A stretch of 34,344 nucleotides of DNA from NCBI GenBank assembly GCA_007128005.1, contig SKYF01000001.1, positions 1 through 34,344 on the forward strand, given 5' to 3'. This DNA is from Bdellovibrionales bacterium (GTDB lineage Bacteria > Bdellovibrionota > Bdellovibrionia > Bdellovibrionales > UBA1609). This document shows positions 13,553-27,894 of this stretch, one piece after another (positions within the stretch are counted from its first letter, which is position 1; every line of letters starts with the position of its first letter). The position numbers and the translations under genes are program-made. The notes under the pieces were generated by a model that saw only the letters and a program-made list of their open reading frames with translations, did not search any database and had not been told where the DNA came from.

Positions 13553-14208
13553 AGACGCAGAGTTTGGTGGCTCCAAGTATACTGTCGGCAGACTTTGCCA
13601 ATTTACAAAAAGAGGTCGAAGCCCTGGCCCAGGCAGGAGCCGACTGGGTTCATGTGGACGTGATGGATGGGCACTTTGTACCCAATTTGACCATCGGAGC
13701 GCCTGTGGTCAAGAGTCTCAAGGCCGTCACCCCCCTGCCCTTAGACGTCCACCTGATGATAGAGGAGCCTGAGCGCTACATTGAGGACTTTGTCAGTGCG
13801 GGAGCCGATTATTTGACTATCCATGTGGAGTCCACAGAACAAGTGGAGTCCACTTTGAAGTCGATTCGCCAACTAGGTGCAAGGCCTGGAATTACTCTCA
13901 GGCCAGGGACGGCCATTGAGGAGATATACCCCTATTTGGGCCTTGTGGATTTGGTGTTAATTATGACGGTGAACCCGGGCTTTGGGGGCCAGAGCTTTAT
14001 GCTCGAACAAGTGGGAAAGATTGCTGCGGTGAAGGAGCAGTTAGAAGAGATAGGTTCATCTGCACTGATTGAGGTGGATGGGGGAGTCAATGAGCAGACG
14101 GTCTCCCATTTACTGGCAGCCGATGTGTTTGTGGCGGGCAGTTACGTCTTTAACTGTAAGGAGGGTTATGCCCACGCTATAGAAAAGCTCAAGAGGAGAG
14201 GCGGATGA
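13549..14208 (+). CDS. rpe: Ribulose-phosphate 3-epimerase
   Basis: Pentose-phosphate pathway epimerase (ribulose-5-P to xylulose-5-P), a metal-dependent TIM barrel. The 219 residues include APSILSADFANL (8-19), HVDVMDGHFVPNLTIG (35-50) with metal and catalytic residues, DVHLMIEEPERY, IMTVNPGFGGQ and IEVDGGVN. GTG start overlaps the fmt stop by 4 bp, and its own stop overlaps hutH by 4 bp. Many genomes have rsmB/sun between fmt and rpe; it is absent here. Confidence 0.96.
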   Translation: MKTQSLVAPSILSADFANLQKEVEALAQAGADWVHVDVMDGHFVPNLTIGAPVVKSLKAVTPLPLDVHLMIEEPERYIEDFVSAGADYLTIHVESTEQVESTLKSIRQLGARPGITLRPGTAIEEIYPYLGLVDLVLIMTVNPGFGGQSFMLEQVGKIAAVKEQLEEIGSSALIEVDGGVNEQTVSHLLAADVFVAGSYVFNCKEGYAHAIEKLKRRGG

Positions 14209-15779
14209 TGCAAACGGAAAAGCCAAACCAAATGTTGAATGAAGTGGAAATCACCGGTGAGGGGCTGGATTTAGAGACGGTCTGGCATGTGGCCTACGGG
14301 CCTCAAGTGCAGGTGAGGTTGTCTGCGGGCTCCAGGGAAAAAATGCGGCTCAGTCGGGGCTATATCGAAGGTAGGATTGAGCGCGGTGACATTATGTATG
14401 GGGTCAACACCGGCTTTGGGGCCTTTAGTGGGGTGAGTATCTCCCAGTCAGACATTGTTCAGTTGCAAAAGAATTTGATTCGCTCTCACTCCAGCGGAGT
14501 GGGGGAGCCCTTTAGCCGGGCAGAAACTCGGGCCATTATGCTCTTGAGAGCCAACGCCCTGGCCAGAGGCCACAGCGGTGTGCGTGTTGAGGTGGTGAAA
14601 AAGATTTTGGAGTTTTTAAATCGGGGACTGATCCCGGTCATCCCCCAGCAGGGAAGTGTGGGGGCCAGTGGGGACTTGGCTCCTCTGTCACACCTATCCT
14701 TGGCCCTTATTGGTGAAGGCGAGCTGTGGTCTGACAAGCTGGGAGAAGTTCTTGCGGCCCAAGAGGTGCTCAAGAGCAAAGGGATTGAACCCCTTGAGCT
14801 CCAGGCCAAAGAGGGACTGTCTCTGATCAATGGCTGTCAGGTAATGACCGCCGTGGGAATGTTGAATGCAGTGGAGAGTCGACGCCTGCTGTGGATGGCA
14901 GACTTGGCAGGGGCAATGACCCTTGAGGCTCTTCAGGGCTCAAGGTCGGCATTTGATCCTTTGATTTTTGCCACAAGGCCTCATCCTGGAGAGGCCAAGA
15001 CGGCCCGCAACCTTCTGAAGCTTCTAGGCAGTGAGTCTGAGATCGGAAACAGTCACAAAGACTGTGGGCGAGTTCAGGATGCCTATTCGCTGCGCTGTAT
15101 GCCAGCCGTGCATGGGGCCGCCAAGGATGCTCTTCGTCGTCACGCCGAGGTGCTGATGGTGGAAGCCAACTCCTCCACAGACAATCCCTTGGTCTTTGCT
15201 GAGGAGAATAAGGTTCTCTCCTGCGGAAACTTCCACGGTGAGCCTGTGGCCTTTGCCTTGGACTTTATGGGCATTGCCATGGCGGCCATGGCAAGCATGA
15301 GTGAGTGTCGCATTGAGAAGCTCATCAATCCGGCAATGAGCGGCCTGCCAGCTTTTTTGGCCCCTCAAGGCGGGCTCAATAGCGGGATGATGATTGTTCA
15401 GGTGGCCGCGGCCTCTTTGGTGAGCGAGAACAAGATTCTGTCTCATCCGGCCTCTGTGGACAGCATCCCGACCTCGGCGGACAAAGAGGACCATGTGAGC
15501 ATGGGAACCATTGCGGCAAGGAAGCTGGGGAAGATTGTTCGCAATGCGGAAAACATAGTGGCCATGGAGTTGTTGTGTGCGGCCCAGGCCTTAGATTTTT
15601 TAAAGCCCTTGAAACCGGCTGCAGGGGTGTGGGCGGCCTATGAGGTTCTGCGCAAAGAGGTCCCCTTTGCCGAGCAGGACAGAGTCTTTGCCCGGGACAT
15701 TGAACTTATCAAGAAACTCATTCGCGATGACCAGTTGATGCAGGCCATTGATCAGTCGGTCGGAACCCTGGAGTGGTAA
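14205..15779 (+). CDS. hutH: Histidine ammonia-lyase
   Basis: First step of histidine degradation: L-histidine to urocanate plus ammonia. The self-formed MIO cofactor tripeptide is Ala154-Ser155-Gly156 in GSVGASGDLAPLSH. The catalytic Tyr lies in YGVNTGFGAFS (65-75), and SSTDNPLVF and GNFHGEP motifs line the pocket. At 524 residues it is normal to slightly long, with a 10-20 residue extra N-terminus. ATG at 14205 overlaps the rpe stop, so hut expression is coupled to a housekeeping gene. Aromatic ammonia-lyase activity is possible in this family, but the adjacent hutU and hutI settle the role. Confidence 0.95.
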   Translation: MMQTEKPNQMLNEVEITGEGLDLETVWHVAYGPQVQVRLSAGSREKMRLSRGYIEGRIERGDIMYGVNTGFGAFSGVSISQSDIVQLQKNLIRSHSSGVGEPFSRAETRAIMLLRANALARGHSGVRVEVVKKILEFLNRGLIPVIPQQGSVGASGDLAPLSHLSLALIGEGELWSDKLGEVLAAQEVLKSKGIEPLELQAKEGLSLINGCQVMTAVGMLNAVESRRLLWMADLAGAMTLEALQGSRSAFDPLIFATRPHPGEAKTARNLLKLLGSESEIGNSHKDCGRVQDAYSLRCMPAVHGAAKDALRRHAEVLMVEANSSTDNPLVFAEENKVLSCGNFHGEPVAFALDFMGIAMAAMASMSECRIEKLINPAMSGLPAFLAPQGGLNSGMMIVQVAAASLVSENKILSHPASVDSIPTSADKEDHVSMGTIAARKLGKIVRNAENIVAMELLCAAQALDFLKPLKPAAGVWAAYEVLRKEVPFAEQDRVFARDIELIKKLIRDDQLMQAIDQSVGTLEW

Positions 15780-15800
15780 ATAAAAAGGAGCGCAGAAAAA

Positions 15801-17450
15801 ATGCAAAAGCGAACTATAAAAGCCCCCGTCGGAACAGAACTGCATTGCAAAGGCTGGCTTCAAGAAGCGGCTTTTCGAATGATTCAGAACAACCTGGACC
15901 CCCAGGTGGCAGAACTTCCCGATGATTTGATCGTCTACGGGGGGCGGGGCAAGGCGGCCCGTAACTGGGAGTGCTTTGACAGGATCTTGGCCGCCTTGAA
16001 GGAGTTGGACAGTGACGAGACCCTCTTGGTTCAGTCGGGAAAACCCATTGGAGTTCTCAAAACCCACAGCGATGCTCCAAGGGTGTTGATTGCCAACTCC
16101 AACCTGGTTGGCAACTGGGCCAACTGGGAAGTCTTTGATGAGCTGGAAAAAAAGGGGCTGATGATGTACGGCCAGATGACGGCAGGATCTTGGATCTACA
16201 TTGGCTCCCAGGGCATAGTTCAGGGGACCTATGAGACTTTTGTCGAAGCCGGTCGCAGACACTTTGGGGGAGACCTGAAGGGACGAGTCATCCTCACAGC
16301 AGGTCTTGGGGGAATGGGTGGAGCTCAGCCCTTGGCCGGAGTCTTTGCCGGAGCCTCGGTGCTGGCCGTGGAGGTCGACCCGGAGCGCATTCAAAAGAGG
16401 TTGGATACAGGCTATGTGGACGAATGGGCTCAGGACTTGGATGAGGCCCTGACTAGAATTGAGGAGTGCAAGAAAAATGCTTGGGCCAAGTCTGTGGCTC
16501 TTCAGGGCAATATGAGTGAGGTCATCCATCAACTCATCGAGAGAAACTTTCAGCCCGACCTCTTGACGGATCAGACCTCAGCCCATGACCCGCTGACGGG
16601 ATATATTCCGGCAGGATACTCTGTGCAGGCTGCGGCGGAGCTTCGTGCCCGCGATCCAAAGGACTATGTGCGCAAGTCCAAGGCCAGTATGGCTCAACAT
16701 GTGCGTGGAATGCTGGAGATGCAAAAGCGAGGGGCGGTGACCTTTGACTACGGAAACAACATTCGCGCCATGGCTCGCGACGAGGGAGTGGAGGAGGCCT
16801 TCTCTATTCCGGGTTTTGTGCCTGAATACATTCGCCCCCTGTTTTGCAAGGGCAGTGGGCCCTTTCGCTGGGTGGCGCTCTCCGGAGACCCTGAGGACAT
16901 TCGGGTCACGGATGCGGCTTTGAAGGAGCTTTTTCCCCACAAGACTCACCTCTTGCGCTGGTTGGATATGGCTGCTGAGCGGATTCAGTTTCAGGGGTTG
17001 CCTGCACGGATCTGCTGGCTAGAGTATGGAGAAAGAGCCAAGGCGGGCTTGAAATTCAATGAGCTTGTGGCTGAGGGCAAAGTCAAAGCACCCATTGTGA
17101 TTGGGCGTGACCACTTGGACTGTGGCTCGGTGGCTTCTCCCAACCGAGAGACAGAGGCCATGCAAGACGGCAGTGATGCCGTGGCCGATTGGCCCATTCT
17201 CAATGCTTTGGTGAATACGGCCTGTGGAGCGACTTGGGTCAGCTTTCACCATGGAGGAGGAGTTGGGATGGGCTACAGTCTCCATGCGGGGCAGGTGATC
17301 CTTGCTGATGGAACCCCAGAAGCTGCAAGGCGCCTGCAGAGGGTGCTGACTGCGGATCCTGCCATGGGTGTTTTTCGTCATGTGGATGCGGGTTACGAGG
17401 AGGCCAAAACAACAGCTAAGGACAGGGGGGTCCAGTCCCTGTGGCTTTAA
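15801..17450 (+). CDS. hutU: Urocanate hydratase
   Basis: Second histidine-degradation step: urocanate to imidazolone-propionate, using tightly bound NAD+ as electrophile. The 549 residues are the standard length. The NAD-binding glycine-rich stretch is [12 protein letters not shown] (166-177). The family signature [10 protein letters not shown] (397-406) contains the active-site cysteine (Cys405 here), and [18 protein letters not shown] follows. AAAAAGGAGCG precedes the ATG by about 8 bases. It is 21 bp after hutH and overlaps hutI by 10 bp. Confidence 0.97.
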
Positions 17451-18691
17451 AGATCTTTGACTTTGATGAGCTGTTCACCTTTAAGGCCGCCGCCGCCCGC
17501 GATGGTCGAAGAGTTTCTCAAAAGGACCTAAGTCCCCTGAAATCGGCTCGGCTGGTCAGCGTTGATGGCAAGATCCTTTGGTTGGGGCCGAAAAAGCAGT
17601 TTAAGGCCTCGCTGCTCAAACCCTGGGGTGGAGTAAGGGCCTTTGAACAGGTAAACTTATCAGGTTTTTTGGCCTTGCCCGCCTTTGTCGAGTGTCACAG
17701 TCATTTGGTCTTTGCCGGCTCCAGGCATGGTGAGTTTGAGCAGCGCAATCAGGGGGTCAGCTATGAACAGATTGCCAAGCAGGGCGGGGGGATTATTTCC
17801 ACCGTCAAAGCCACTCGCAGAGCATCAGAGTCTGAGTTGCTGGCTTTAGCTCAAGAGCGAGCCATTAAGTTCTTAAGCCAAGGTGTCACTGTTCTTGAGG
17901 TCAAAAGCGGCTACGGCTTAAACCAATCCAGCGAGCTGAAACTCCTGAAGGTGGCGGGACAAATTCAAGGGCCCCAAATTGTCCCTACTTTTTTGGGAGC
18001 TCATGCCCTACCCCCTGAGTTTTCAGATGTGGACAGTTATTTAGACTATTTGGAACAAAAAGTCTTGCCCTTGGTGAAGCGAAGAGGGCTCGCACAAAGG
18101 ATAGATATCTTTTGGGACAAGGGTTATTTTCACAGTCCGAGAGCTCTCAAGTTTTTGCTCCAGGCCCAAAAAATGGGCTTTGCCATCTGTGCCCATGTGG
18201 ATCAACTCCATTCCCTTGGCGGAGTGAAGTCCTTGTTGGAGTTGGCCAGTGTTTCTTTAGATCATGTGGTTCAACTCACAGATCCGGACATCACTCGCAT
18301 TGCGCGAAGCCAGTCGACGGCCGTCCTGCTTCCCGGGGCCGATTTTTATTTGCGTATGAAGTATCCTCCAGCGCGAAGGCTTTTAGAAGAAGGGGCTCGC
18401 TGTGCCTTGGCCACTGATTTTAACCCGGGATCTTGCCCCACCCAGGACCTGTCTTTGATAGGGGTGCTGGCTCGCCTGGAGATGAAAATGACTCTGCCTG
18501 AGGTGCTCGTTGCCTACACCTATGGGGCTGCAGCGGCTTTGGGCCTGCAAGCTGATTTTGGTTCCTTGGAGGTTGGCAAGAGCTGTGACTTTGTTTGTTT
18601 CAATGCAGGGCTAGAGGAGCTGTTTTATTCTGTTGGCCATCATCCTGTGAAGGGGGTTTGGCATCGGGGGCAGCAGGTTTACGCTCACTGA
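17441..18691 (+). CDS. hutI: Imidazolonepropionase
   Basis: Third histidine-degradation step: hydrolyses imidazolone-propionate to N-formimino-glutamate. A metal-dependent amidohydrolase of 416 residues with the HSH ligand pair (H86/H88 in [20 protein letters not shown]), then EVKSGYGL, a HVDQLHS metal-ligand strand and [11 protein letters not shown] with the catalytic Asp. GTG at 17441 lies inside the end of hutU (10-bp overlap). No hutG, hutF or ftcD follows, so the formimino-glutamate step must be encoded elsewhere. Confidence 0.95.
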
Positions 18692-18794: not shown

Positions 18795-19208
18795 ATGGCA
18801 GAAGCTACACTTTTTTTGAGTCAGTCGCGCTACTATTCACCAGTGTTCAATTCGGCGATTTTTGATGGGCCAGTGAGAGTCTACTTTGCTCAGCACCAAG
18901 AGTCTTTGGCTCTAAAGGTCTACTTTAGGCTCAAGGAGAGGTTGAAGTCCATTGGAGATGAGGTCCGCTACAGCGGTCAGCATCTGTTTGTGATGCTGTA
19001 TCCAAGTGATGAGTCCTTTGAGCTGTCCTTTTCTGGGGCAGCACCTAAAATTGCTCAGGAGTTACTGGGTGAGGATTTTGTCTTTGGAGTTAAGGGGCCA
19101 TTGGAGGATGAGGCTTATGAGTCACTCTATGCTCAGGCCGAAAAGGTCTTACACTCTTGGAGACAGGAAGAGCGACGAGAGGGAGTGTCAGCTTCCCCCT
19201 TGGATTGA
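18795..19208 (+). CDS. Uncharacterised small soluble protein
   Basis: I do not recognise this 137-residue protein. It has no signal peptide, membrane segment or cysteine. It appears mixed alpha/beta: a strand-like opening (VRVYFAQ), a helix (ALKVYFRLKERLKSIG), a strand (HLFVMLYPS) and a C-terminal helix (EAYESLYAQAEKVLHSWRQEERR). GGGGG precedes the ATG by 7 bases, and codon use looks like that of its neighbours, which supports real coding. Its last 21 bp overlap the 3' end of the converging FecR-like gene. It lies 104 bp after hutI, possibly with its own weak promoter (TTGAGC/TATAGG, only 15 bp apart). Confidence 0.65.
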   Translation: MAEATLFLSQSRYYSPVFNSAIFDGPVRVYFAQHQESLALKVYFRLKERLKSIGDEVRYSGQHLFVMLYPSDESFELSFSGAAPKIAQELLGEDFVFGVKGPLEDEAYESLYAQAEKVLHSWRQEERREGVSASPLD

Positions 19209-21488
19209 CCAGGGATGGCTCCAAGAGGAGGAAAACTCCTCTCTTTCTGCCCGAACGCGCCAGAAAACTCTTCCGCTGGGAAGAGATTGGTCAAGGATAA
19301 GGCTGTCCGAGTCGGACTCCTTCTCTAGCAAAACTTCACTGAACTGAGGAGTCAAGGAGAACTGAACGCGGTAGTTCAGGGCTTCAGGTACTCTCTGCCA
19401 GGAAAAGAATAAAGTGGATTCATCGTCATCATCCCCATCACTGGGTCCTCCAAAGGAAACCACTTGAACATTATCAATTGGTTGCAATAGCCGGGGAACT
19501 TCCAGAATCAGGGTCCTTTTGTAGAGGATCTCAATGGGCTCGGTCTTTTGGGAGAGATCCTCTTTATCAGCAGTCATGGCCACAGCGCGTGCAAAATAAG
19601 TTCCGGGCTCTTCCAGTTTGATTTCGATATTGGGCTCACTGGCGAGAGCTCTTTGGGGCTCGGTGAACTCTGGGTCTTTGGACCATTCTAGGGCGTAGGA
19701 GCTGGCTCCCTTAACAGGGCCGAGGGCGACCTCAACTGTATGTGGAGAGCTGAGTAGCTCCGCAGCTCGTCTGACTTCGACCTTGGCATCTACAAGTTTC
19801 GGAGCTTCTGGAGCTGGAGCCAGAATCATAAGGCTTGAGGTGGGGCTGTAGTCGCTCCACTCTCCAGATTCATTCTGACTGCGGACGCGCCAGAAGACTC
19901 GGCCTGGTTGGGGAGATCTCCAGCGCAGGTTGGTGTTTTGGGTCCGAGCCTCCTCCCGGGATTCTATAAACTCATTGTCTCTGGCCACTTGAACTTGATA
20001 GGCCGTAGCCCCGGTGACGGCTTGCCAAGATAGCATTACCTGGGCGGCCTGCCCTGGGGGCAGGTCCACTTGGCTTGGGGCCTGAACTTTTGTAGGAGGC
20101 AAGAGGGGAATTTTTAGGGGCACAGCTGTGGGCTCCTCCTCAATTTCCTCCTCATCAATGACCTCATCAGAAGCGGAGGAGGCCTTTGCAAGGAGATCGA
20201 CGACCTCAGGCAGGGGCAACTCTTCTGCTGTGGGGGTGGCCGGCGGCACCAGGCTGGGGTCGATAGCCAGAGGCATTGCCGATGAGTCTCTGTCTCCCAC
20301 CCAAAAGCGTCGTGTTTGGCTCCACAGTTCGTCGACTGGGTGATTGTGGTCTGTGCGCACTCTCCAGTAAAATGAGCCTGTCCTGTCAAAATGCAGTTTG
20401 ATTCGATTTCCAGTGATTTTGCTGCGGGCGAAAAGAGGAGAGAACTCCTCATTTCGGCTGACCTCTATATAATGGTTGAGCACCGAGGGCCTGGATCTAA
20501 AGCGAAACTCCACCTCAACAGAATCTCCTCTTTGGAGGAGCTGATCTGGAAAAGAGTACTTATTTATGGGGAACTCCAGCTCCGGAGGGGCAATCAAATT
20601 CAGTGTGAAGAGTTGGAACTCATCTGAGGAGGCTTGCCCATCAGGACTGACCTGCCAGTAGACAGGCCCCTCAAATGTCCAGTTGCTGATCTCAGAACTT
20701 CTGCCACTAAACTGAAGGGAGGTCAGTCTGCGCTGAAATTGGGGGTCCAAGGCGATGTGAAGTTGGCCCTGGGCGATGTCTTGATTGACCTCAAAGCGCA
20801 GAGGGTCTTGAGGCCAAAGCCAGGTTTCGCCCTTGGGGGATTTGAGGTTTTTTCTAAGGCTTCGGTCTTGGCTTGGAGTGGTTTCGGAGAGGAGGAGTTT
20901 CTCCCCTTCTGTCACTGAACGTCTTTTTCCGTCTTCGTCTTCAACTTCAAGGCTTCCGCCAAGAGTCTGAATCAGGACATTGCCGATGGGTGACTTTTGA
21001 ATAAGTGTCTGTCCGCTTTGTGGAGTGCCTCTGAGAGTGACCTCTCGCCCTTGGTGGATCAAAGAGAGTGATCTTCCTGACCCCAGGTTGAGCTCTGCTG
21101 AACCCATTTGAAAATCGAGAGCAGGTCCAGATTTCCCCACAATCACTTGGACCAAGGTTCCAGGGCCCAGCTCGAGTTGAGTGTCGATGGGGTAGATTTT
21201 AAAGCTCAGTCGGGACTGGGAGCCCACAAACAGGGAGTCGCGGTTGTGGATTCGGTGTTGGGAGTTGAGGGGAAACCAAGTGAGACTGGATTCAGATCTT
21301 CTGCGCGCATCGTTGGAGGAATACAGAGCCTCTCCCACGACTTCGTTCTCTGATGACTGACTAAGGTCCAGCATCTGGCGCAACAGGTGTTCGTCATTCA
21401 AAAGATAGACTCCTGCGAGCACAATCAAGCCGCTGACAGAGAGGAGAACTTTGTCCACATAAGAAGTTTTTAGAGAAAACATGTTCAA
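19188..21488 (-). CDS. FecR-domain protein with fibronectin-III-like repeats
   Basis: A 766-residue single-pass envelope protein. One N-terminal hydrophobic segment (13-30) anchors or exports it. Residues about 68-200 match a FecR-like beta domain (SLFVGSQSRLSFKI, LELGPGTLVQVIVG, VTEGEKLLLSE). The rest holds about five divergent fibronectin-III-like units, recognised by a late Y/F-W-x-V motif: 277 (VYWQVS), 374 (FYWRVR), 532 (VFWRVR), 631 (YFARA) and 742 (VFWRVR). Three are preceded by GATAYQVQVARDNEF-like strands. Acidic linkers occur at 441-452 and 685-690. Probably periplasmic or surface scaffold, ligand unknown. It is divergent from the SpoIIE-like gene with only 32 bp between starts. Confidence 0.8.
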   Translation of the reverse strand: MNMFSLKTSYVDKVLLSVSGLIVLAGVYLLNDEHLLRQMLDLSQSSENEVVGEALYSSNDARRRSESSLTWFPLNSQHRIHNRDSLFVGSQSRLSFKIYPIDTQLELGPGTLVQVIVGKSGPALDFQMGSAELNLGSGRSLSLIHQGREVTLRGTPQSGQTLIQKSPIGNVLIQTLGGSLEVEDEDGKRRSVTEGEKLLLSETTPSQDRSLRKNLKSPKGETWLWPQDPLRFEVNQDIAQGQLHIALDPQFQRRLTSLQFSGRSSEISNWTFEGPVYWQVSPDGQASSDEFQLFTLNLIAPPELEFPINKYSFPDQLLQRGDSVEVEFRFRSRPSVLNHYIEVSRNEEFSPLFARSKITGNRIKLHFDRTGSFYWRVRTDHNHPVDELWSQTRRFWVGDRDSSAMPLAIDPSLVPPATPTAEELPLPEVVDLLAKASSASDEVIDEEEIEEEPTAVPLKIPLLPPTKVQAPSQVDLPPGQAAQVMLSWQAVTGATAYQVQVARDNEFIESREEARTQNTNLRWRSPQPGRVFWRVRSQNESGEWSDYSPTSSLMILAPAPEAPKLVDAKVEVRRAAELLSSPHTVEVALGPVKGASSYALEWSKDPEFTEPQRALASEPNIEIKLEEPGTYFARAVAMTADKEDLSQKTEPIEILYKRTLILEVPRLLQPIDNVQVVSFGGPSDGDDDDESTLFFSWQRVPEALNYRVQFSLTPQFSEVLLEKESDSDSLILDQSLPSGRVFWRVRAEREEFSSSWSHPWSIQGGS

Positions 21489-21501
21489 CTCATCGGAAAG
21501 C

Positions 21502-21507
21502 TATAAT
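21502..21507 (+). promoter_or_regulatory. Consensus -10 box between divergent genes
   Basis: A perfect TATAAT ends 13 bp before the SpoIIE-like ATG, implying a leader of only about 6-7 bases. No good -35 lies 16-18 bp upstream. The complementary strand reads TATTAT nearly in register (CTATAATAG), so the divergent FecR-like gene could share the melted region. Confidence 0.5.
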
Positions 21508-21520
21508 AGAATTCAAATAA

Positions 21521-23341
21521 ATGAAGGTCCAAATTTCAATAAAGTTTAAACTTTTACTACTGACCAGTGGGCTTGTGACGCTGGCCCTCCTTGCAAACCA
21601 CTATCTTTCGGTTGAGGAATTTAAACGCGATAAAATTGCCTATGTTTTTTTCTCCTCCTTGGCCAACGCCCAGAATACAGCCACCCATATTCGTGGAGAT
21701 CTCAACTTTGGTCTAGAGCGCATTCGCTCCTACTTGCGACTTTATAATCCCGAGGGCCCGAACTTTCTGCCAAGGGCCTATGAAAACTTGAACGAAGATC
21801 AGTTTTTAGTTGATCTCCAAGTGTATCAATTGGATCCAGATTCTGGAAGGTATCAGCTTCGCAGTCGGCTCAGTCGAGAGTCCGGTGAAGAAATGGGCCT
21901 GTCAGATGAACTGATCCAGGAGACTTTGCAGCAAGAGGTGAGCCTGGGGGTGGATCCATCGCGTAGGGACAGATGGAGACTGAGTGTGACTGTGCCCGTA
22001 CAGGGAGGCGGCGAGCCCTTACTGGCTTCGGCCACTTTTCAGGAAGGGCAGTTTCTCGATCATTTTTTTAGCCCCAAGATGCAGAACACCTATTTGATCA
22101 ATGAGTTTGGTGAGGTTCTCATTTCTCCGGCCAGAACTCCCCATGAGCTTGATGAGGGCCTTCTGGCTCGGTCTCTAAAGGAGCTTTTGCCCGACCTGGG
22201 TTCAGCAAGTCAGGTGAAGGAGATCAACGATCTATTGATCTCTTTCAGCCAAGTCGGGGCTGGAAACTTGAGTGCGGTGAGTCTGGTGCCTCGGGCCGCA
22301 GCCCTTGAGGGGCTGCAGTTTATCACTTTGAAATCAACTGTGCTGGTGATTGTATTGATTGCCATAGCGATCATATTCAGTGTCTTGGGGTCCAATCAAC
22401 TGACAGCAAATATCTTTCGCCTCTATGATGCCATGAAGATGGTCACAGCGGGGAATTTGGACTCTCGAGCCCAGGTGAAAAGTCAGGATGAGATTGGCGT
22501 TTTGGCGCAGGGCTTTAACCATATGACAGCGGAGCTGCAGAGGTTGCTAGCAGAGACAGCAGAAAAGGCTCGAATGGCTTCGGAGTTGGCCACAGCTCGG
22601 ACTGTGCAGTCCACCTTGTTTCCCCATCCGGAGCTGGTCACAGAGGAAGTTGAAGTGCAGGGCTTTTACGAGCCTGCAAGTGAGTGTGGAGGTGACTGGT
22701 GGCACTATTATATTAGCAAAGAGAGGCTCTACCTGTGGATTGGCGATGCCACGGGCCACGGAGTGCCAGCGGCTCTGATCACCAGTGCGGCCCGCTCAGC
22801 CTCATCTGTCCTAGAGTCTCTACCAGACCTCAGTACTGCCGAGGCCATGCGCCTTCTCAACAAAGCCGTCTGTGAGACCTCAAAGGGTCAGGTTATGATG
22901 ACCTTCTTCTTGGGCTGCTTAGACCTTAAGACAGGTGAGCTGCGCTATACAAGTGCCAGTCACGACCCGCCCTTTTTGCTGCCGCAAAAGGAGGGAAAGC
23001 TCTCCAAAAAAGATGTTCTTCCTCTGATGGACAGTGAGGGCAAAAGACTGGGCGAGAGTCTAGACAGTGAATACGAGGAAAAAGCTGTGCAGCTGAATCC
23101 TGGAGATAGGCTATTTCTCTATACGGACGGGGTGACTGAGCTTGTGGGGCCTGAGCAGAGTCAGTGGGGGGAAAGACAACTTATTAAAACTCTCCTGCAC
23201 TCTATCAACTCACAACATAGCCTAAAGCAAGGACTTGAGGAGATGAAGACAGCTTTAAGTGAGTTCAAACAGGACACCCCTTTGGCTGATGATGTGACTT
23301 ATTACTTTGTGCAACTTAAGAAGGTGATCAATGAACACTAA
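21521..23341 (+). CDS. Membrane sensor SpoIIE-type protein phosphatase with HAMP
   Basis: A 606-residue signalling protein. TM1 is at 10-27, an extracytoplasmic sensor region at about 30-268, TM2 at 270-290, a HAMP domain at about 290-342 (NIFRLYDAMKMVTAGNLDSR...EIGVLAQGFNHM), a short coiled coil, then a PP2C/SpoIIE domain from about 365. Metal-binding acids are visible: D392 (GGDWW), D409 (GDATGHG), D536 (YTDGVTE) and D590/D591 (LADDVT). Such proteins dephosphorylate anti-anti-sigma or related STAS/HPt partners. No anti-sigma kinase or STAS gene is nearby, so the target is unknown. No Shine-Dalgarno is evident before the ATG. Its end overlaps the next gene by 11 bp. Confidence 0.9.
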   Translation: MKVQISIKFKLLLLTSGLVTLALLANHYLSVEEFKRDKIAYVFFSSLANAQNTATHIRGDLNFGLERIRSYLRLYNPEGPNFLPRAYENLNEDQFLVDLQVYQLDPDSGRYQLRSRLSRESGEEMGLSDELIQETLQQEVSLGVDPSRRDRWRLSVTVPVQGGGEPLLASATFQEGQFLDHFFSPKMQNTYLINEFGEVLISPARTPHELDEGLLARSLKELLPDLGSASQVKEINDLLISFSQVGAGNLSAVSLVPRAAALEGLQFITLKSTVLVIVLIAIAIIFSVLGSNQLTANIFRLYDAMKMVTAGNLDSRAQVKSQDEIGVLAQGFNHMTAELQRLLAETAEKARMASELATARTVQSTLFPHPELVTEEVEVQGFYEPASECGGDWWHYYISKERLYLWIGDATGHGVPAALITSAARSASSVLESLPDLSTAEAMRLLNKAVCETSKGQVMMTFFLGCLDLKTGELRYTSASHDPPFLLPQKEGKLSKKDVLPLMDSEGKRLGESLDSEYEEKAVQLNPGDRLFLYTDGVTELVGPEQSQWGERQLIKTLLHSINSQHSLKQGLEEMKTALSEFKQDTPLADDVTYYFVQLKKVINEH

Positions 23342-24620
23342 ACAAAAAATAAGCTCGTTTTTAGGCTGTCCTGTGGAGTGCCTTTTGATTTTTGTGGTTC
23401 TTGTCTTAGTGGGGACTATGGGATCTTCAGTGAGAGCTCAGGACCTTTCAGTAAGTATTCAAGAGGATGAGTCTGAGGATATGGGATTAGGTGGGGAGGA
23501 GGAAGAAGTCCCCTTTCTGGATGCCAGACCGGTGCCACAAATTCAGTGGTACTTTCCAATTAGCCGCCCAAGCCCCAAGAAAAATAGAATTCGCGTCATT
23601 GTTTCTGGAAGAGTAGAGGGGCCGGCCAAGGTGCACCTCGGTGCCGATCGCATTCCCGTCATTATTGGTCGCAGAGCGGCCAATGCGCCTCCGCGAGCTC
23701 TGCTCGACACCCAACTGCCCCTAGAGACGGACCGCTCAGGAACTTTTGAGATTGTTATGGACGCTCCTCAGAGCAATATCCAGCTGCCACTGAGAATCGT
23801 AACTTTGGATGAGCAAAAGGAGGGGACCTTTCAGCTGAACTTGGTCATTCGCAGGGACCGAGTGGAGCTGCGTGGGCAGGACAATCTAGTGCACGCACCA
23901 GCCCACCAGAAGCGCTTTGAGGCCTGGTTTGGAACGGGCTTTAACTACCTTCGCTATTCTCAGGACACGGAATTTTGGAACCCCGCTTTTGAGACATTTA
24001 CTGGACCCTCGTTTTTTGCCAAAGGACGAGCTCGAGTGTGGCGGGATTTCAGTGCTTTGTTAGAGGTGAAGATGTCGCCTGGGGCCACTCAGAGCTCAGA
24101 GAGCCTTGACGTCACTCAGGGGAGTTATCAGTGGTGGATCTACTCTGGAGAGGTTCTCTATATGCCAGCTTCTCTTCAAGGCAGGCTTCTGCGCAATCCG
24201 GGACCCTGGGGTATCCGGGTGGGAGCTCAGCACCATATTATGCCCTTTTTGCGCCGTGAGGAGGATGTTCGCTTTTCGATTGTGGACGCCCAAGTCACTA
24301 TGGCGACCTTGGGCTTTCAGCATGAGGAGGAGCTGTTTAACAATATCGATTTTGAGATCTTTATGCGCTATCAACATCCCATCACTAAGGGCGATGTGTT
24401 TACAATTTCCCCGATATTTGCTTTTGATGGCTCTTTGGGCTTGATCTACAACTTTCGATCTGGTTTGAGACTGGGTGCCTTTTGGTATGGTCAGTGGCAT
24501 GAGTACAACTATACAGATAAGCGCTTTGACCCCTCCCCAGACGTCAACGGTTTTGTGCAGGGCAGGCAGTCTCTGTTTTTCAGTAATGCCGAAATTCGCT
24601 TAGGTTATGCCTTTGATTGA
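23331..24620 (+). CDS. Putative outer-membrane beta-barrel protein
   Basis: A 429-residue exported protein. The signal peptide includes CLLIFVVLVLVGTMGSSVRAQ (about 18-38) with cleavage after RAQ. The mature N-terminus is very acidic (DESEDMGLGGEEEE). A beta-rich domain at about 60-190 follows (VIVSGRVEGPAKVHLGADRIPV, then GTFQLNLVIRRD). The C-terminal about 230 residues show alternating aromatic/polar strands (FEAWFGTGFNYLRYSQ, GLRLGAFWYGQWHEYNY, AEIRLGYAFD), typical of a small outer-membrane barrel. AAGGTGA lies 5 bases before ATG. The 11-bp overlap with the SpoIIE-like gene indicates co-expression. I do not recognise a named family. Confidence 0.68.
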   Translation: MNTKQKISSFLGCPVECLLIFVVLVLVGTMGSSVRAQDLSVSIQEDESEDMGLGGEEEEVPFLDARPVPQIQWYFPISRPSPKKNRIRVIVSGRVEGPAKVHLGADRIPVIIGRRAANAPPRALLDTQLPLETDRSGTFEIVMDAPQSNIQLPLRIVTLDEQKEGTFQLNLVIRRDRVELRGQDNLVHAPAHQKRFEAWFGTGFNYLRYSQDTEFWNPAFETFTGPSFFAKGRARVWRDFSALLEVKMSPGATQSSESLDVTQGSYQWWIYSGEVLYMPASLQGRLLRNPGPWGIRVGAQHHIMPFLRREEDVRFSIVDAQVTMATLGFQHEEELFNNIDFEIFMRYQHPITKGDVFTISPIFAFDGSLGLIYNFRSGLRLGAFWYGQWHEYNYTDKRFDPSPDVNGFVQGRQSLFFSNAEIRLGYAFD

Positions 24621-24628
24621 GGGGAAGC

Positions 24629-25321
24629 TTAGGCAATCCTCTTGATTTGGGCGAGCTTTGAGCGCAGTTGAGCGTTTTCATTGCGCAGGCGCTGGTTGTC
24701 TTCAGACAGTTCAACAATCTTTGCAGACAGTTTTTCGAGCTTGCCTCTATCCTCGGCCGGGGTGTCGGCGCGCGAAGTTTTTACTTCTGGAACGGTCTTA
24801 AGAGGAGTGGGCTGAGTGATGGTGATGCCATCGAGTTGAGGTTTTGAACCCATTAACATCAAGTCAATGTCAGGAGCTATTACTAGGTCTGGGCAAATGG
24901 TCTCGAGTTTCAGTTTGCCGTCTTCGATCAGACCACGCACATGAACAATGAGTTTAGTGACAGCGGCTGAAGACTCTCCCGGGCTTGGAGTGAGTTCCCC
25001 ATAGAGGTCTTCTAAGTTTCTTTTTTTGCTGAATGCCAAAGAGTTGAAAAAAACAGCTCTTTTACTCTCCTCCAGTTGGTGGAGAACAGTGGCCAGGGTG
25101 AGAGGGGGTAAGTTCTCCAGAGCTTGAGTCATAGAGTCTTCGGCCCAGGAGGCGATGCGCTCAAGGGTCAGGCGTTTTTTTTGAATGAGCTGCTCCCAGA
25201 AGGGATCTTCTTCTTGGATCACCTTAAGGAGTCGCTCCTGCTTTACGGGATCACAGTTCTCAATAAGTTTGAGAATTTGGATAAAACCACCATTTTTTTT
25301 GTAGCGATCAAGCATTCCCAT
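24629..25321 (-). CDS. FliG-C-like domain protein with leucine-zipper tail
   Basis: A 230-residue cytoplasmic protein. Residues about 28-110 match the FliG C-terminal repeat pattern. KVIQEEDPFWEQLIQKKRL aligns with the FliG I-x-EEDP-x6-I-x3-MF segment, LERIASWAEDSMTQALENL with ED-(I/L)-V-L-L-D-D-x2-(I/V)-Q-x-(L/V)-L, and TLATVLHQLEESKRAVFFNSLAFSKK with LALALKGA...(F/L)xxNMSKR. Residues 192-227 form a heptad coiled coil (LEKLSAKIVELSEDNQRLRN). It lacks the FliG N- and middle domains and is not in a flagellar cluster. It is the third gene of the lemA/M48 unit, 23 bp after the protease. The function is unknown and the domain call is by eye. Confidence 0.6.
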   Translation of the reverse strand: MGMLDRYKKNGGFIQILKLIENCDPVKQERLLKVIQEEDPFWEQLIQKKRLTLERIASWAEDSMTQALENLPPLTLATVLHQLEESKRAVFFNSLAFSKKRNLEDLYGELTPSPGESSAAVTKLIVHVRGLIEDGKLKLETICPDLVIAPDIDLMLMGSKPQLDGITITQPTPLKTVPEVKTSRADTPAEDRGKLEKLSAKIVELSEDNQRLRNENAQLRSKLAQIKRIA

Positions 25322-25344: not shown

Positions 25345-27297
25345 TCAGGAAGCTGAGTCCAAAAATGGGGCCGGAGTGTCCATGGACTCAAGTAGGGCTC
25401 TGAGCATTTCCTGTTCTTGAGGGAGAACGGGTTGCAGATGCAGAGCTGTGGCAATGAGAGCCTTGGCCACCCACTCCTTTTTGTGGGGTTTAAGTTGCCG
25501 CAGGCGATCTATGGCCCAGATAAGATTTTCTCCCTGGGCTTTAGTCAGGGTTCGGTAGCGCAAATTGGACTTTTCTTTTAGAACCTCGGCTCCGGCATTG
25601 AAGGCCTGAATTCTCTCACTGTCAGAGGCGCTGGACAAATGCGCCAAGGCTGATAGCACCAAGCTGATCTCCTGAGACATTTGAGAAAGACCTCGGCTCG
25701 GTAAGAGAGGGGCCACCAGATGGGAGGAGTCTTGAAGGTGATGGCGAAGGAGAGAATAGAGAACAAACTCAAAGTGGTCCAGTTGTTGGTTGAGGTACAT
25801 GATGCGCTGGATGTGGTGGAGGAGGCTTCGTTTTCTCTGCGGGGCCAGCTCCTTAAGAGTGGGCAGGCAGAGGTCAATGAGCCGCAGCCGCTGGCTTCTG
25901 TCAATGCGGTCGATCTGTTGGCGAGCTGGTTCTATAAGAGCTCTCAGATGAGGGGATTCGTTTTCCTTCAACCACTGGATCTGTGCCTGTCGGGAGACGA
26001 GATCTTCTTCCAAAGCCAGAGCATAGGTGTAGGCCATGGCTCCCAGCGGGTCTCTACAGGCCTCAATTACAGACTCCGGAAGGCTTTCAAGCAGCCGCTG
26101 GGCTTTTGAGAGCTGCTCGCCCTCAAGGACTCCAATGGTCAGTAGGAGTTGCTCAGGGGTGATCTGCCCGCGAGTCAGGCCAGGGATAATAGGAGGGGGT
26201 CCTTGACGAGAGGGTTTTTTGGGCTGCTCTTGGTCCTTCTTGGGTGATTCTGTGCGAGGGTCGTAAGGGGGGAGTCTGAGCAAGCCTCTGTCGATTCGGC
26301 GGATCCTCTCCTCAAGCGGAGGGTGGGAGGCAAAGAGGCTGTCCAGAGCAAATTTACCAGGGCTTGCAAAAAACATATGGCTGAGCTCCTGAGCATGGTA
26401 GTCTTCGATTTGGCCCTTCCACCAGGAGTATCGACTGAGGTCTCTGATTTTTTTTAGAGCTCCTCCAATGCTCAGGGGGTTGCGCGTGAACTGCAAAGCC
26501 GCGGCATCGGCCAAAAACTCCCTTTGGCGCGAGATCGAGGACTTAATCAGCTGACCAAATAGCACACCAAAGTATCCCAGTACGATCAGGAGCAGGCCAA
26601 AGGCCATCATGGCAAGGATGACAAAAAAAACTCCCTGCTGGCCTCGCCCTCCTCTTCGACCGCTAAAACGAATCCAGTGCAGGCTGCGCAAAAAAAAGCG
26701 TCCGGCAATGGTAAGAGAGAAGATTCCAAATAGCAGACTGACAAGATAGGTGTTCAAACGCATATCTCCGTGAAGAATATGGCTGAACTCATGGGCCACC
26801 ACACCTTGAAGTTCATCTCGGGTGAGGTGATCTAGGCAACCTTGAGAAAAAGCTACGGCGGCCTGATTGGGGGAGTAGCCAGCGGCAAAGGCGTTGATGG
26901 AGGACTCTCGGGGCAGAAGGTAAACTTGGGGCATCACGATGCCCGAGGCAATGGCCATCTCTTCGACCACATTGAGCAAGGTTTTTCTCTGGGGATCTTG
27001 GTCGCCGTGAACGATCAGCTGACCACCCATCATCTCTGCAACAGAGGCCCCTCCCTTTCTTAACATCATCCATCGGCCCCAAGAGGCCAGGGCAATCAAA
27101 ACGGCCGTGGTCAGGGCCACGCCCCAACCCACTTCCCAGAGTCTCTCCGGAGCCACATCGCCCGCGTTGAGCCACAGGACGATGGCCAGGGCTCCCAGAG
27201 TGGCTGAGCCCACCAGGGCCACCACGGCCAGGAAAAAGTAAAATATCAGGATTCGCGTCTGTCTATGGGCCCAGCGCTGGTGCTCAAAAAAGTTCAT
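25345..27297 (-). CDS. M48 (HtpX-like) membrane metalloprotease with long C-terminal extension
   Basis: A 650-residue inner-membrane zinc protease. Membrane segments lie at about 15-44 and 57-75, and two more at about 182-202 and 222-247 flank the active site. The zinc motif is HEFSH (169-173) with the third ligand E260 (REFLADAAAL). SSINAFAAGYSPNQAAVAFSQG is the family substrate-cleft strand. HtpX itself is under 300 residues; here about 310 extra residues after about 340 form a Pro-rich linker then a helical, Leu/Gln-rich domain without recognised motif. The gene follows lemA by 3 bp, a known LemA-M48 pairing. It likely acts in membrane-protein quality control. Confidence 0.9.
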   Translation of the reverse strand: MNFFEHQRWAHRQTRILIFYFFLAVVALVGSATLGALAIVLWLNAGDVAPERLWEVGWGVALTTAVLIALASWGRWMMLRKGGASVAEMMGGQLIVHGDQDPQRKTLLNVVEEMAIASGIVMPQVYLLPRESSINAFAAGYSPNQAAVAFSQGCLDHLTRDELQGVVAHEFSHILHGDMRLNTYLVSLLFGIFSLTIAGRFFLRSLHWIRFSGRRGGRGQQGVFFVILAMMAFGLLLIVLGYFGVLFGQLIKSSISRQREFLADAAALQFTRNPLSIGGALKKIRDLSRYSWWKGQIEDYHAQELSHMFFASPGKFALDSLFASHPPLEERIRRIDRGLLRLPPYDPRTESPKKDQEQPKKPSRQGPPPIIPGLTRGQITPEQLLLTIGVLEGEQLSKAQRLLESLPESVIEACRDPLGAMAYTYALALEEDLVSRQAQIQWLKENESPHLRALIEPARQQIDRIDRSQRLRLIDLCLPTLKELAPQRKRSLLHHIQRIMYLNQQLDHFEFVLYSLLRHHLQDSSHLVAPLLPSRGLSQMSQEISLVLSALAHLSSASDSERIQAFNAGAEVLKEKSNLRYRTLTKAQGENLIWAIDRLRQLKPHKKEWVAKALIATALHLQPVLPQEQEMLRALLESMDTPAPFLDSAS

Positions 27298-27300
27298 GGG

Positions 27301-27894
27301 TTAACTGAAAGAGACTTGAATGTTCTTTCGCTCTTCTGCGGACTCCACTTCAAAGAGTTCAGCGGGTTGAAAGCCAAAGGAGCCAGCAAAGATCACATTG
27401 GGGAAAACCTCTCTGGTTGTATTGTAGGTCATCACCGAGTCATTGTAATGCTGACGGGCAAAGGAGATCCGGTTCTCTGTGGAAGACAGCTCCTCCATCA
27501 ACTGGCGCATATTCTCATTGGCCTTGAGGTCGGGATATTGCTCAAATACAGCGAGCAATCGTCCCAGGCTGCCACTCAGTTGAGAGTCGGCTTTGGCCAA
27601 ATCTTTGATGGCCTTTGCGTCTGTGGGGTCGGAGGCCGCCTTTTTTTCTGCAGTGATAGCTCCGGTGCGGGCCTGGATCACAGCCTCTAGGGTTTCTCTT
27701 TCGTGCTTCAAGTAGCCCTTGGCGGTCTCTACAAGATTGGGGACGAGGTCGTAGCGTCTTTTCAATTGCACATCAATTTGTGCGAAGGCGTTCTTAAACT
27801 GGTTTTGAAGCCTCACCAGGGAGTTGTAGATATTGACGATCATAAAGATAAGAACTCCCGCCACTACCAGGCCGATGATTGTCCCCAAAGTCAT
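27301..27894 (-). CDS. lemA: LemA family protein
   Basis: A 197-residue protein with one N-terminal membrane helix (about 5-22) and a long helical bundle. The family core is clear: VNIYNSLVRLQNQFKNAFAQIDVQLKRRYDLVPNLVETAKGYLKHE (about 20-65), then ALKANENMRQLMEELSSTENRIS-like and YNDSVMTYNTTREVFPNVIFA motifs. Family function is not settled; it is repeatedly adjacent to M48 peptidases and membrane-stress genes. It is first in a three-gene minus-strand unit, with AAAGGGG about 7 bases before ATG and a good upstream promoter. Confidence 0.94.
   Translation of the reverse strand: MTLGTIIGLVVAGVLIFMIVNIYNSLVRLQNQFKNAFAQIDVQLKRRYDLVPNLVETAKGYLKHERETLEAVIQARTGAITAEKKAASDPTDAKAIKDLAKADSQLSGSLGRLLAVFEQYPDLKANENMRQLMEELSSTENRISFARQHYNDSVMTYNTTREVFPNVIFAGSFGFQPAELFEVESAEERKNIQVSFS

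Follow-up and report, generated by a model that had tools for sequence, protein, structure and literature searches.

A conserved FecR/Fn3-like rod, sensor phosphatase and outer-membrane barrel gene trio in Bdellovibrionales, probably a trans-envelope sensory cassette

Three adjacent genes of a Bdellovibrionales bacterium, a relative of predatory bacteria, encode a FecR/Fn3-like rod protein, a HAMP-SpoIIE sensor phosphatase and an outer-membrane barrel protein. They constitute a real and conserved cassette, probably one for sensing across the envelope, and its likely partners in the cytoplasm are encoded at another site of this genome. The genes lie in a stretch of 34,344 nucleotides (the window; contig SKYF01000001.1 of assembly GCA_007128005.1), which is contig C61 of the source genome, G000, an assembly of 2.57 Mb in 212 contigs. 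A sequence-only reading of the window had suggested that an inner-membrane phosphatase, a periplasmic or surface scaffold and an outer-membrane protein could form one set, and this grouping is borne out by the conservation of the trio, by gene fusions and by the recurrent pairing of sensor, FecR and barrel. Together the three genes probably encode a sensor that reaches from the outer membrane into the cell, where it ends in a phosphatase. The chief known examples of surface sensing across two membranes are TonB-receptor/anti-sigma systems and phosphorelays fed by lipoproteins. In our literature search, the broader part of which was judged by titles and abstract openings, no description was found of a FecR/Fn3, SpoIIE and outer-membrane protein set. 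The barrel and the rod appear to feed a sensor with a swappable output, which would allow the input module to be studied alone, and the remainder of the pathway is probably in the same genome, so that a surface-sensing mechanism of a new type could be put to a direct test.

Conservation and architecture of the trio

The neighbourhood of the three genes is not accidental, because their order is kept in nine genera with flanks that differ from those of the window beyond its sister genome, G044, the only genome to share the flanking genes. The main comparison set consisted of 47 genomes of the GTDB family. A trio was counted where a FecR gene lay divergent within 277 bp of a phosphatase match and a barrel gene, in the orientation of the phosphatase, was no more than 210 bp from it; the count used 53 of 64 phosphatase matches (the 11 weakest, at E≥3.8e-28, were omitted), 41 of the 42 barrel matches in the family, and 60 FecR matches from a far longer series, in which additional fragments of a match and numerous remote FecR relatives were passed over. 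On this basis, profile searches place the trio in at least 12 loci of 11 family genomes. Eleven of these loci are outside the window, in 10 other family genomes (two are in G038), and the trio is also present in another family, f6, in G121 and G122, with a short phosphatase open reading frame (ORF) of 491 amino acids (aa) in G121. The possibility, allowed for by the sequence-only reading, that the three genes are neighbours in no relative is thus excluded. The divergent FecR-phosphatase pair occurs in at least 21 loci of 19 family genomes, with gaps of up to 277 bp, and also at loci of f2, f3, f4, f6 and f8.

The sensor phosphatase (21,521-23,341, plus strand; 606 aa from an ATG) is predicted to have two transmembrane segments, placed by eye, on either side of a periplasmic dCache-like sensor, followed by HAMP (residues 292-340) and SpoIIE/PP2C (residues 400-598) domains. 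Its description as a HAMP-SpoIIE phosphatase is confirmed by Pfam (HAMP PF00672, E 4.5e-12; SpoIIE PF07228, E 2.7e-35). The aspartates of the GGDW, GDATGHG, TDG and DDxT motifs, which we take to be metal-binding, are kept in all 39 aligned phosphatases, including that of the window. A dCache_1 match (24.3 bits, cut-off 45) was seen solely in a GGDEF relative of the sensor. The protein has two features of an RsbU-type phosphatase, a PP2C catalytic domain with its aspartate motifs and a HAMP-linked membrane sensor.

Only 32 bp away, the rod protein is encoded divergently (19,188-21,488, minus strand; 766 aa from a TTG, with an in-frame ATG at 21,482). It consists of approximately 9-12 residues before a hydrophobic helix (residues 10-31), a FecR-like β-domain (about 50-200), five β-sandwich/Fn3-like domains and a disordered linker (about 401-465), with domain borders drawn by eye on a model from a shallow alignment of 12 sequences (pLDDT 78.7, pTM 0.38). 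The two parts of the FecR/Fn3 description of this neighbour have different grounds: Fn3/Ig-like Pfam families match the window protein itself, and the FecR label, for which the window protein gives no match at E≤0.1, is a provisional one, assigned because orthologues and relatives match PF04773, the orthologue in L225 at 28.4 bits (cut-off 24) and relatives in L052, L058, L183 and L072 at 23.6-24.0 bits, at or barely below that cut-off. Searching for similar folds with the rod model gave long Ig/Fn3 ectodomains, at TM-scores of 0.1-0.2 by query length with useless superpositions. The longest N-terminal run without charged, amide, histidine or proline residues measures 16-21 residues in 19 of 20 FecR proteins, the window protein being among them with 17 and the exception, L034, having 12, and this run is probably an inner-membrane anchor, although it could also be cleaved.

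The outer-membrane protein (23,331-24,620, plus strand; 429 aa from an ATG) has no Pfam match at E≤0.1, no match among PDB sequences at E≤10 and none in a plasmid collection. Its AlphaFold2 model (mean pLDDT 84.3, 21 sequences) shows a signal helix, a disordered stretch (residues 30-61), a β-domain (residues 71-181) and a barrel of 233 residues with ten long strands (residues 196-428), in keeping with the beta-barrel-like protein with a signal peptide that had been proposed. The β-sandwich-like domain (23,541-23,873, plus strand) is present also on the L057 and L061 proteins. The barrel domain (23,916-24,614, plus strand) recurs in relatives both fused to FecR/Fn3 and beside mosaic adhesive trimer (MAT)-type fibre genes, and a single-sequence search finds relatives of the protein in 27 of the 47 family genomes.

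Sensor, FecR and barrel travel together while the output domain varies among PP2C, histidine kinase and GGDEF, as seen from gene fusions, a kinase and a cyclase. Seven single-chain FecR/Fn3-barrel proteins of 841-892 aa (open frames of 843-905) are encoded in G026, G027, G028, G029 and G046; a further fusion of 758 aa is found in G043, and others occur outside the family in L119 and L123. The eight that were measured keep a hydrophobic N-terminal segment of 19-20 residues together with the C-terminal barrel, and if the helix is uncleaved these chains (L045, L047-L052, L058) would be one polypeptide running from the inner to the outer membrane. A homologous sensor-HAMP unit is found in G000 itself on a 711-aa HATPase histidine kinase (L183, contig C118), 3.3 kb from an 801-aa FecR protein. 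In L072 a homologous sensor is carried by a GGDEF cyclase, the gene of which overlaps by 4 bp that of a 440-aa FecR-barrel fusion. Several related arrangements were noted in passing. The C-terminus of the 801-aa protein of L183 looks barrel-like by eye; in L197 (G000 contig C202) the gene for a 745-aa FecR-like protein overlaps by 4 bp that for a 550-aa Fn3-like protein, also barrel-like by eye; and a thioredoxin-like/TPR gene lies directly upstream of FecR-barrel fusion genes in L050 (3345-5051), L051 (1562-3262) and L049 (9779-11461).

The phosphatase and outer-membrane protein genes overlap by 11 bp (23,331-23,341, plus strand), as had been stated, and a Shine-Dalgarno-like AAGAAGG inside the phosphatase gene ends 6 nt before the ATG of the second gene (by eye). 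The translational coupling that was read from this overlap is plausible at the window locus. It is not a hallmark of the cassette and was rejected as a general rule, because the genes overlap in just four of the 12 trio loci; gaps of 11-90 bp separate them in the other eight (starts taken from the longest ORFs). The divergent intergenic region (21,489-21,520, TTG to ATG) contains back-to-back -10-like elements, TATAAT on the plus strand (21,502-21,507, by eye) and an overlapping TATTAT on the minus strand. Promoter-like sites number five in 3.5 kb, compared with 2.1 expected, and are putative promoters by consensus match only.

Candidate cytoplasmic partners

What might receive the signal from the phosphatase? 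The sequence-only reading envisaged a set without the usual anti-sigma partners, and this part of it did not hold: the notion that G000 contains no partner-switch genes was rejected, as a divergent RsbW-like kinase and a STAS-like protein are encoded on contig C101 (4101-5371), unlinked to the window, and in relatives such genes are in an operon with, or beside, the same phosphatase family. The C101 genes belong to a five-gene operon without a phosphatase (L208, 3990-9785), in the order kinase, STAS, PAS/Hpt/HATPase, response regulator and REC/DnaJ. In L184-L188, L195, L196, L220 and L228 the operon is opened by a member of the window's phosphatase family, followed by a kinase-like protein of about 280 aa with N and G motifs recognised by eye, a STAS-like protein of about 157 aa, a PAS-Hpt-HATPase histidine kinase, a response regulator and, mostly, a REC-DnaJ-TPR protein; the final gene of L228 is not recognised by the REC-DnaJ-TPR model, and the sequence of L188 ends before that gene. 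FecR is divergent from the operon-opening phosphatase in L195, L196, L220 and L228. A different arrangement is seen in L225-L227 (f3, genus g30), where an Hpt-kinase gene comes after FecR, while STAS and REC-DnaJ genes come after the phosphatase and a kinase-like gene is missing. Genes were found with a longest-ORF caller, and the L229 kinase is masked by an antisense ORF.

The phosphatase and the STAS-like protein also co-occur across the family. STAS relatives are present in 27 and kinase relatives in 28 of the 47 genomes. With the phosphatase set at E<1e-100 and the kinase set at E≤1e-25, and phylogeny ignored, phosphatase and STAS agree in 44 of the 47: 25 genomes have both, 19 have neither, one has only the phosphatase (G004, 82% complete) and two have only STAS (G009, 61%, and G040, 76%). 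All 31 genomes that are at least 90% complete agree, 19 with both and 12 with neither. In those same genomes, phosphatase and kinase are found together in 18, the phosphatase alone in one, the kinase alone in none and neither in 12. The kinase and STAS assignments are made because of operon position, an invariant Asn-Ser in the STAS-like protein (39 of 39 aligned, in the expected loop) and the kinase-like motifs. Because G000 has a single PP2C-domain match at E≤1e-20, the window phosphatase, with a weaker, unrelated SpoIIE protein possible, this phosphatase is by elimination the candidate partner of the single kinase match in that genome and of its only strong STAS match.

We suggest that a partner-switching system operates in Bdellovibrionales and that the trio is its part in the envelope, a proposal that we hold at about an even chance, lowered to that level because kinase genes are missing in relatives. 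A surface or envelope event would be felt by the barrel and its extra domain and relayed by the FecR/Fn3 rod, anchored in the inner membrane; the phosphatase would read the rod through its dCache-like sensor, and HAMP would switch PP2C activity. The phosphatase would then dephosphorylate the STAS-like protein encoded on contig C101, presumably at the serine of its Asn-Ser, and the dephosphorylated protein would change partner with the RsbW-like kinase, a switch that may gate the neighbouring Hpt-histidine kinase/response-regulator relay.

Several observations weigh against this proposal. In G000 the trio and the kinase/STAS operon are unlinked. No kinase gene lies beside STAS in G016 (L213), G017 (L219), L225-L227 or L233; because several operons have no kinase gene, and G016, in which operon L213 begins with STAS, is 100% complete, the kinase is either not required everywhere or replaced by another protein, to judge from gene content. 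Across all 47 genomes the phosphatase-kinase association is looser (22 both, four phosphatase only, two kinase only, 19 neither). Most genomes without phosphatase and STAS are small; among those at least 90% complete and at least 2.4 Mb, 19 have both and four have neither (p 1e-4). Both protein labels also depend on marginal similarity: Pfam HATPase_c_2 matches two of seven kinase members (best E 0.0033) and PF01740 three of seven STAS members (best E 0.011), and hhalign gives probabilities of 33% for the kinase and 31% for STAS, both with a single-comparison E of 0.0005. The references were canonical members from other family genomes (the STAS set includes one from G000). The only other family listed in the Pfam scan of these proteins is dynein, at E 0.092. 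Among PDB sequences, the STAS-like protein is matched by TM1442 at E 0.38, and a search with the kinase profile gave no match at E≤1. Genome searches with the Pfam HATPase_c_2 and STAS models were unspecific, with matches in 45 and 43 of the 47 genomes, many of them in long frames.

A further point against a common substrate comes from the phosphatase tree, built from 40 sequences of the collected loci (complete ORFs of at least 450 aa). Barrel-linked phosphatases, in a group that includes some members without the link, separate from an operon-linked group with moderate support (80/85); the G121 and G122 trio phosphatases fall into the operon-linked group, and two sequences sit on very long branches. 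Because the tree separates the two groups and five genomes (G007, G028, G038, G073 and G119) contain both, the phosphatases may be paralogues with different substrates. The barrel-linked form may be a duplicate that either retained the substrate of its ancestor or acquired another.

That the cassette belongs to the classical RsbU-RsbW-RsbV system is likely. Partner switching with a sensor phosphatase is exemplified by Chlamydia Rsb (PMC11619594). Like the Chlamydia type, the proteins described here include a sensor phosphatase with HAMP and PP2C domains, a linked kinase-like protein and a STAS-like protein with an invariant Asn-Ser, and the logic proposed is the same. Unlike Rsb, the trio has a FecR/Fn3 rod and an outer-membrane barrel on its input side, the genes conserved next to the kinase/STAS pair encode an Hpt-histidine kinase and response regulators, no sigma factor being seen beside them, and the kinase and STAS proteins are very divergent, with the kinase gene missing from some operons. 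No sigma gene was present among the Pfam-scanned C101 operon genes and the three genes before them; the genome was not searched for sigma targets. By analogy, the cassette would work in the manner of partner switching, with a module at the cell surface as its input. As a separate observation, the small genomes G005 and G006 (L172, L175, L176, L179) encode a short canonical STAS/HATPase_c_2/REC-phosphatase-like set, unlike the divergent one.

Alternative roles for the barrel and the rod

The barrel may be an output and not a receptor, a regulated surface protein such as an adhesin or porin that is in the operon because the phosphatase pathway sets envelope composition. The predicted fold is nearest to the adhesin OpcA (2vdf; Z 20.4, rmsd 2.7 over 205 residues) and the omptins (Z 18.9-19.7), together with a Legionella Dot/Icm porin (Z 19.1); the model matches the 10-stranded OpcA/omptin barrels at Z 18.6-20.4 over 204-224 residues, and the next match follows at Z 11.8. 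Unlike OpcA and the omptins, to which its barrel is 8-12% identical, the window protein has an extra N-terminal domain. Nine of the 21 FecR-phosphatase pairs lack an adjacent barrel (two are at contig edges and three have a kinase-like gene there), so sensing is possible without a barrel in the operon, and these pairs also weigh against the main proposal. Barrel relatives often adjoin giant genes, some with adhesin-like repeats, and genes of at least 800 aa make up 15 of 86 immediate neighbours compared with six of 304 genes at a distance of at least three places. However, covalent FecR-barrel fusions and the two-gene unit of a GGDEF cyclase and a FecR-barrel protein would be difficult to account for if the barrel were simply a target gene, and we regard the output role as doubtful. 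Among the relatives, those in L118, L126 and L128 (L127 and L129 more weakly) adjoin giant proteins with Ig-like, Calx-beta or laminin-G repeats.

It is rather unlikely that the rod and barrel act structurally, tethering the membranes to each other or to the wall, with the phosphatase reading tension or spacing instead of an external ligand. The eight measured fusions, with their hydrophobic N-terminus and C-terminal barrel, would bind both membranes if uncleaved, and five β-sandwich domains plus a disordered linker of about 58 residues would suit such a role. Yet the N-terminal segment may be cleaved, the window rod protein has no peptidoglycan-binding Pfam domain, and the rod architecture comes from the shallow-alignment model with its pTM of 0.38.

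Could the barrel family instead serve the MAT fibres? Bdellovibrio bacteriovorus HD100 is reported to have 21 MAT fibres (PMC10769870). A recurrent N-terminal domain found in the comparison genomes is, judged by its position, its number and the chaperone-like ends of several proteins, likely to be the MAT N-terminal domain. It is present in at least 17-29 copies in 13 of 24 g30 genomes and at least 3-9 in the other 11 (copy numbers are lower bounds in some genomes), and its g30 copy number is consistent with the 21 HD100 fibres of that source. Ten barrel loci have a MAT-type neighbour (in G026, G027, G043, G048, G085, G106, G119, G121, G122 and G124), compared with 0.6-1.8 expected by chance for 84 barrel matches, which are match pieces and not proteins, and with ancestry uncorrected. 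Five of the ten adjacent MAT genes had trained the MAT model, and all five are recovered when held out one at a time. A small gene with a lipobox-like cysteine, judged by eye, lies between barrel and fibre genes in L113, L120, L121 and L123 and directly before the barrel in L082. The lipoproteins of L120, L121 and L123 share a C-terminal Y/H-GG..G...SR ending. On contig C12 of G119 (L113, L235), FecR, phosphatase, fibre, lipoprotein, barrel, kinase-like and STAS-like genes are all found within about 10 kb.

A surface role for the barrel family is suggested because of these MAT-type and large-gene neighbours. The barrel, lipoprotein-like and fibre gene clusters are a candidate surface complex of MAT fibres, and some barrel relatives are candidates for the surface element of a MAT prey-recognition fibre. 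The resemblance to the Bdellovibrio fibres (PMC10769870) is that barrel relatives cluster with lipoprotein-like and MAT-type fibre genes; unlike that system, the window locus has no MAT gene, and several cassette genomes have no MAT match. No gene with the MAT N-terminal domain is on the window contig, C61, the sole G000 match being on contig C48, and the MAT model matches nothing at E≤0.001 in the trio genomes G003, G010, G018 and G025, which lowered the window barrel itself as a candidate MAT anchor. A wider scheme is tentative and, we think, improbable as a whole: the barrel family and the small lipoprotein would hold MAT fibres, the FecR rod and the sensor output, be it phosphatase, histidine kinase or diguanylate cyclase, would report fibre or prey contact to the cytoplasm, the fusions of G026-G029 and G046 would link both membranes covalently, and the window cassette would be a form with a non-MAT surface partner.

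The trio is reminiscent of FecA-FecR-FecI signalling, in which an outer-membrane barrel and an inner-membrane FecR-type periplasmic domain relay a surface event. Both would carry such an event across the periplasm, and a FecR-like domain does lie beside an outer-membrane barrel here. It is nonetheless very improbable that the FecR-like protein is an anti-sigma factor in a classical system of this kind, as modelled domain composition lacks two of its defining features. The approximately 9-12 residues before the membrane helix leave no cytoplasmic anti-sigma domain, on which ground the anti-sigma role was rejected, and the barrel, with 10 strands in 233 residues, is not a TonB-dependent receptor, a class with 22-stranded barrels. 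No sigma factor is encoded among the ten window proteins scanned, the other window ORFs being unscanned. Unlike in FecA-FecR-FecI, the membrane step of the trio would end in a phosphatase.

Chance, or simple co-inheritance, is hardly credible as the reason for this gene neighbourhood: metagenome-assembled genomes of one order do have common ancestry, but the order is kept in nine genera, the flanks differ outside the sister genome and the genes are fused in others. A scan of genome contigs with a single peptide pattern gave 21 named relatives, all of them assembled from metagenomes; almost all bear the label Bdellovibrionales, Bdellovibrionia or that of one of its families or genera, and one is labelled Oligoflexia.

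Neighbouring genes in the window

Pfam also identified several other genes around the trio. A run of histidine-degradation-type genes, for an aromatic amino acid lyase, urocanase and amidohydrolase, occupies 14,205-18,691 on the plus strand. Convergent with the outer-membrane protein gene is a gene for a 230-aa protein (24,629-25,321, minus strand) with a FliG_C match of 30.7 bits (cut-off 23.3), and an M48 peptidase gene adjoins a LemA gene at 25,345-27,894 on the minus strand.

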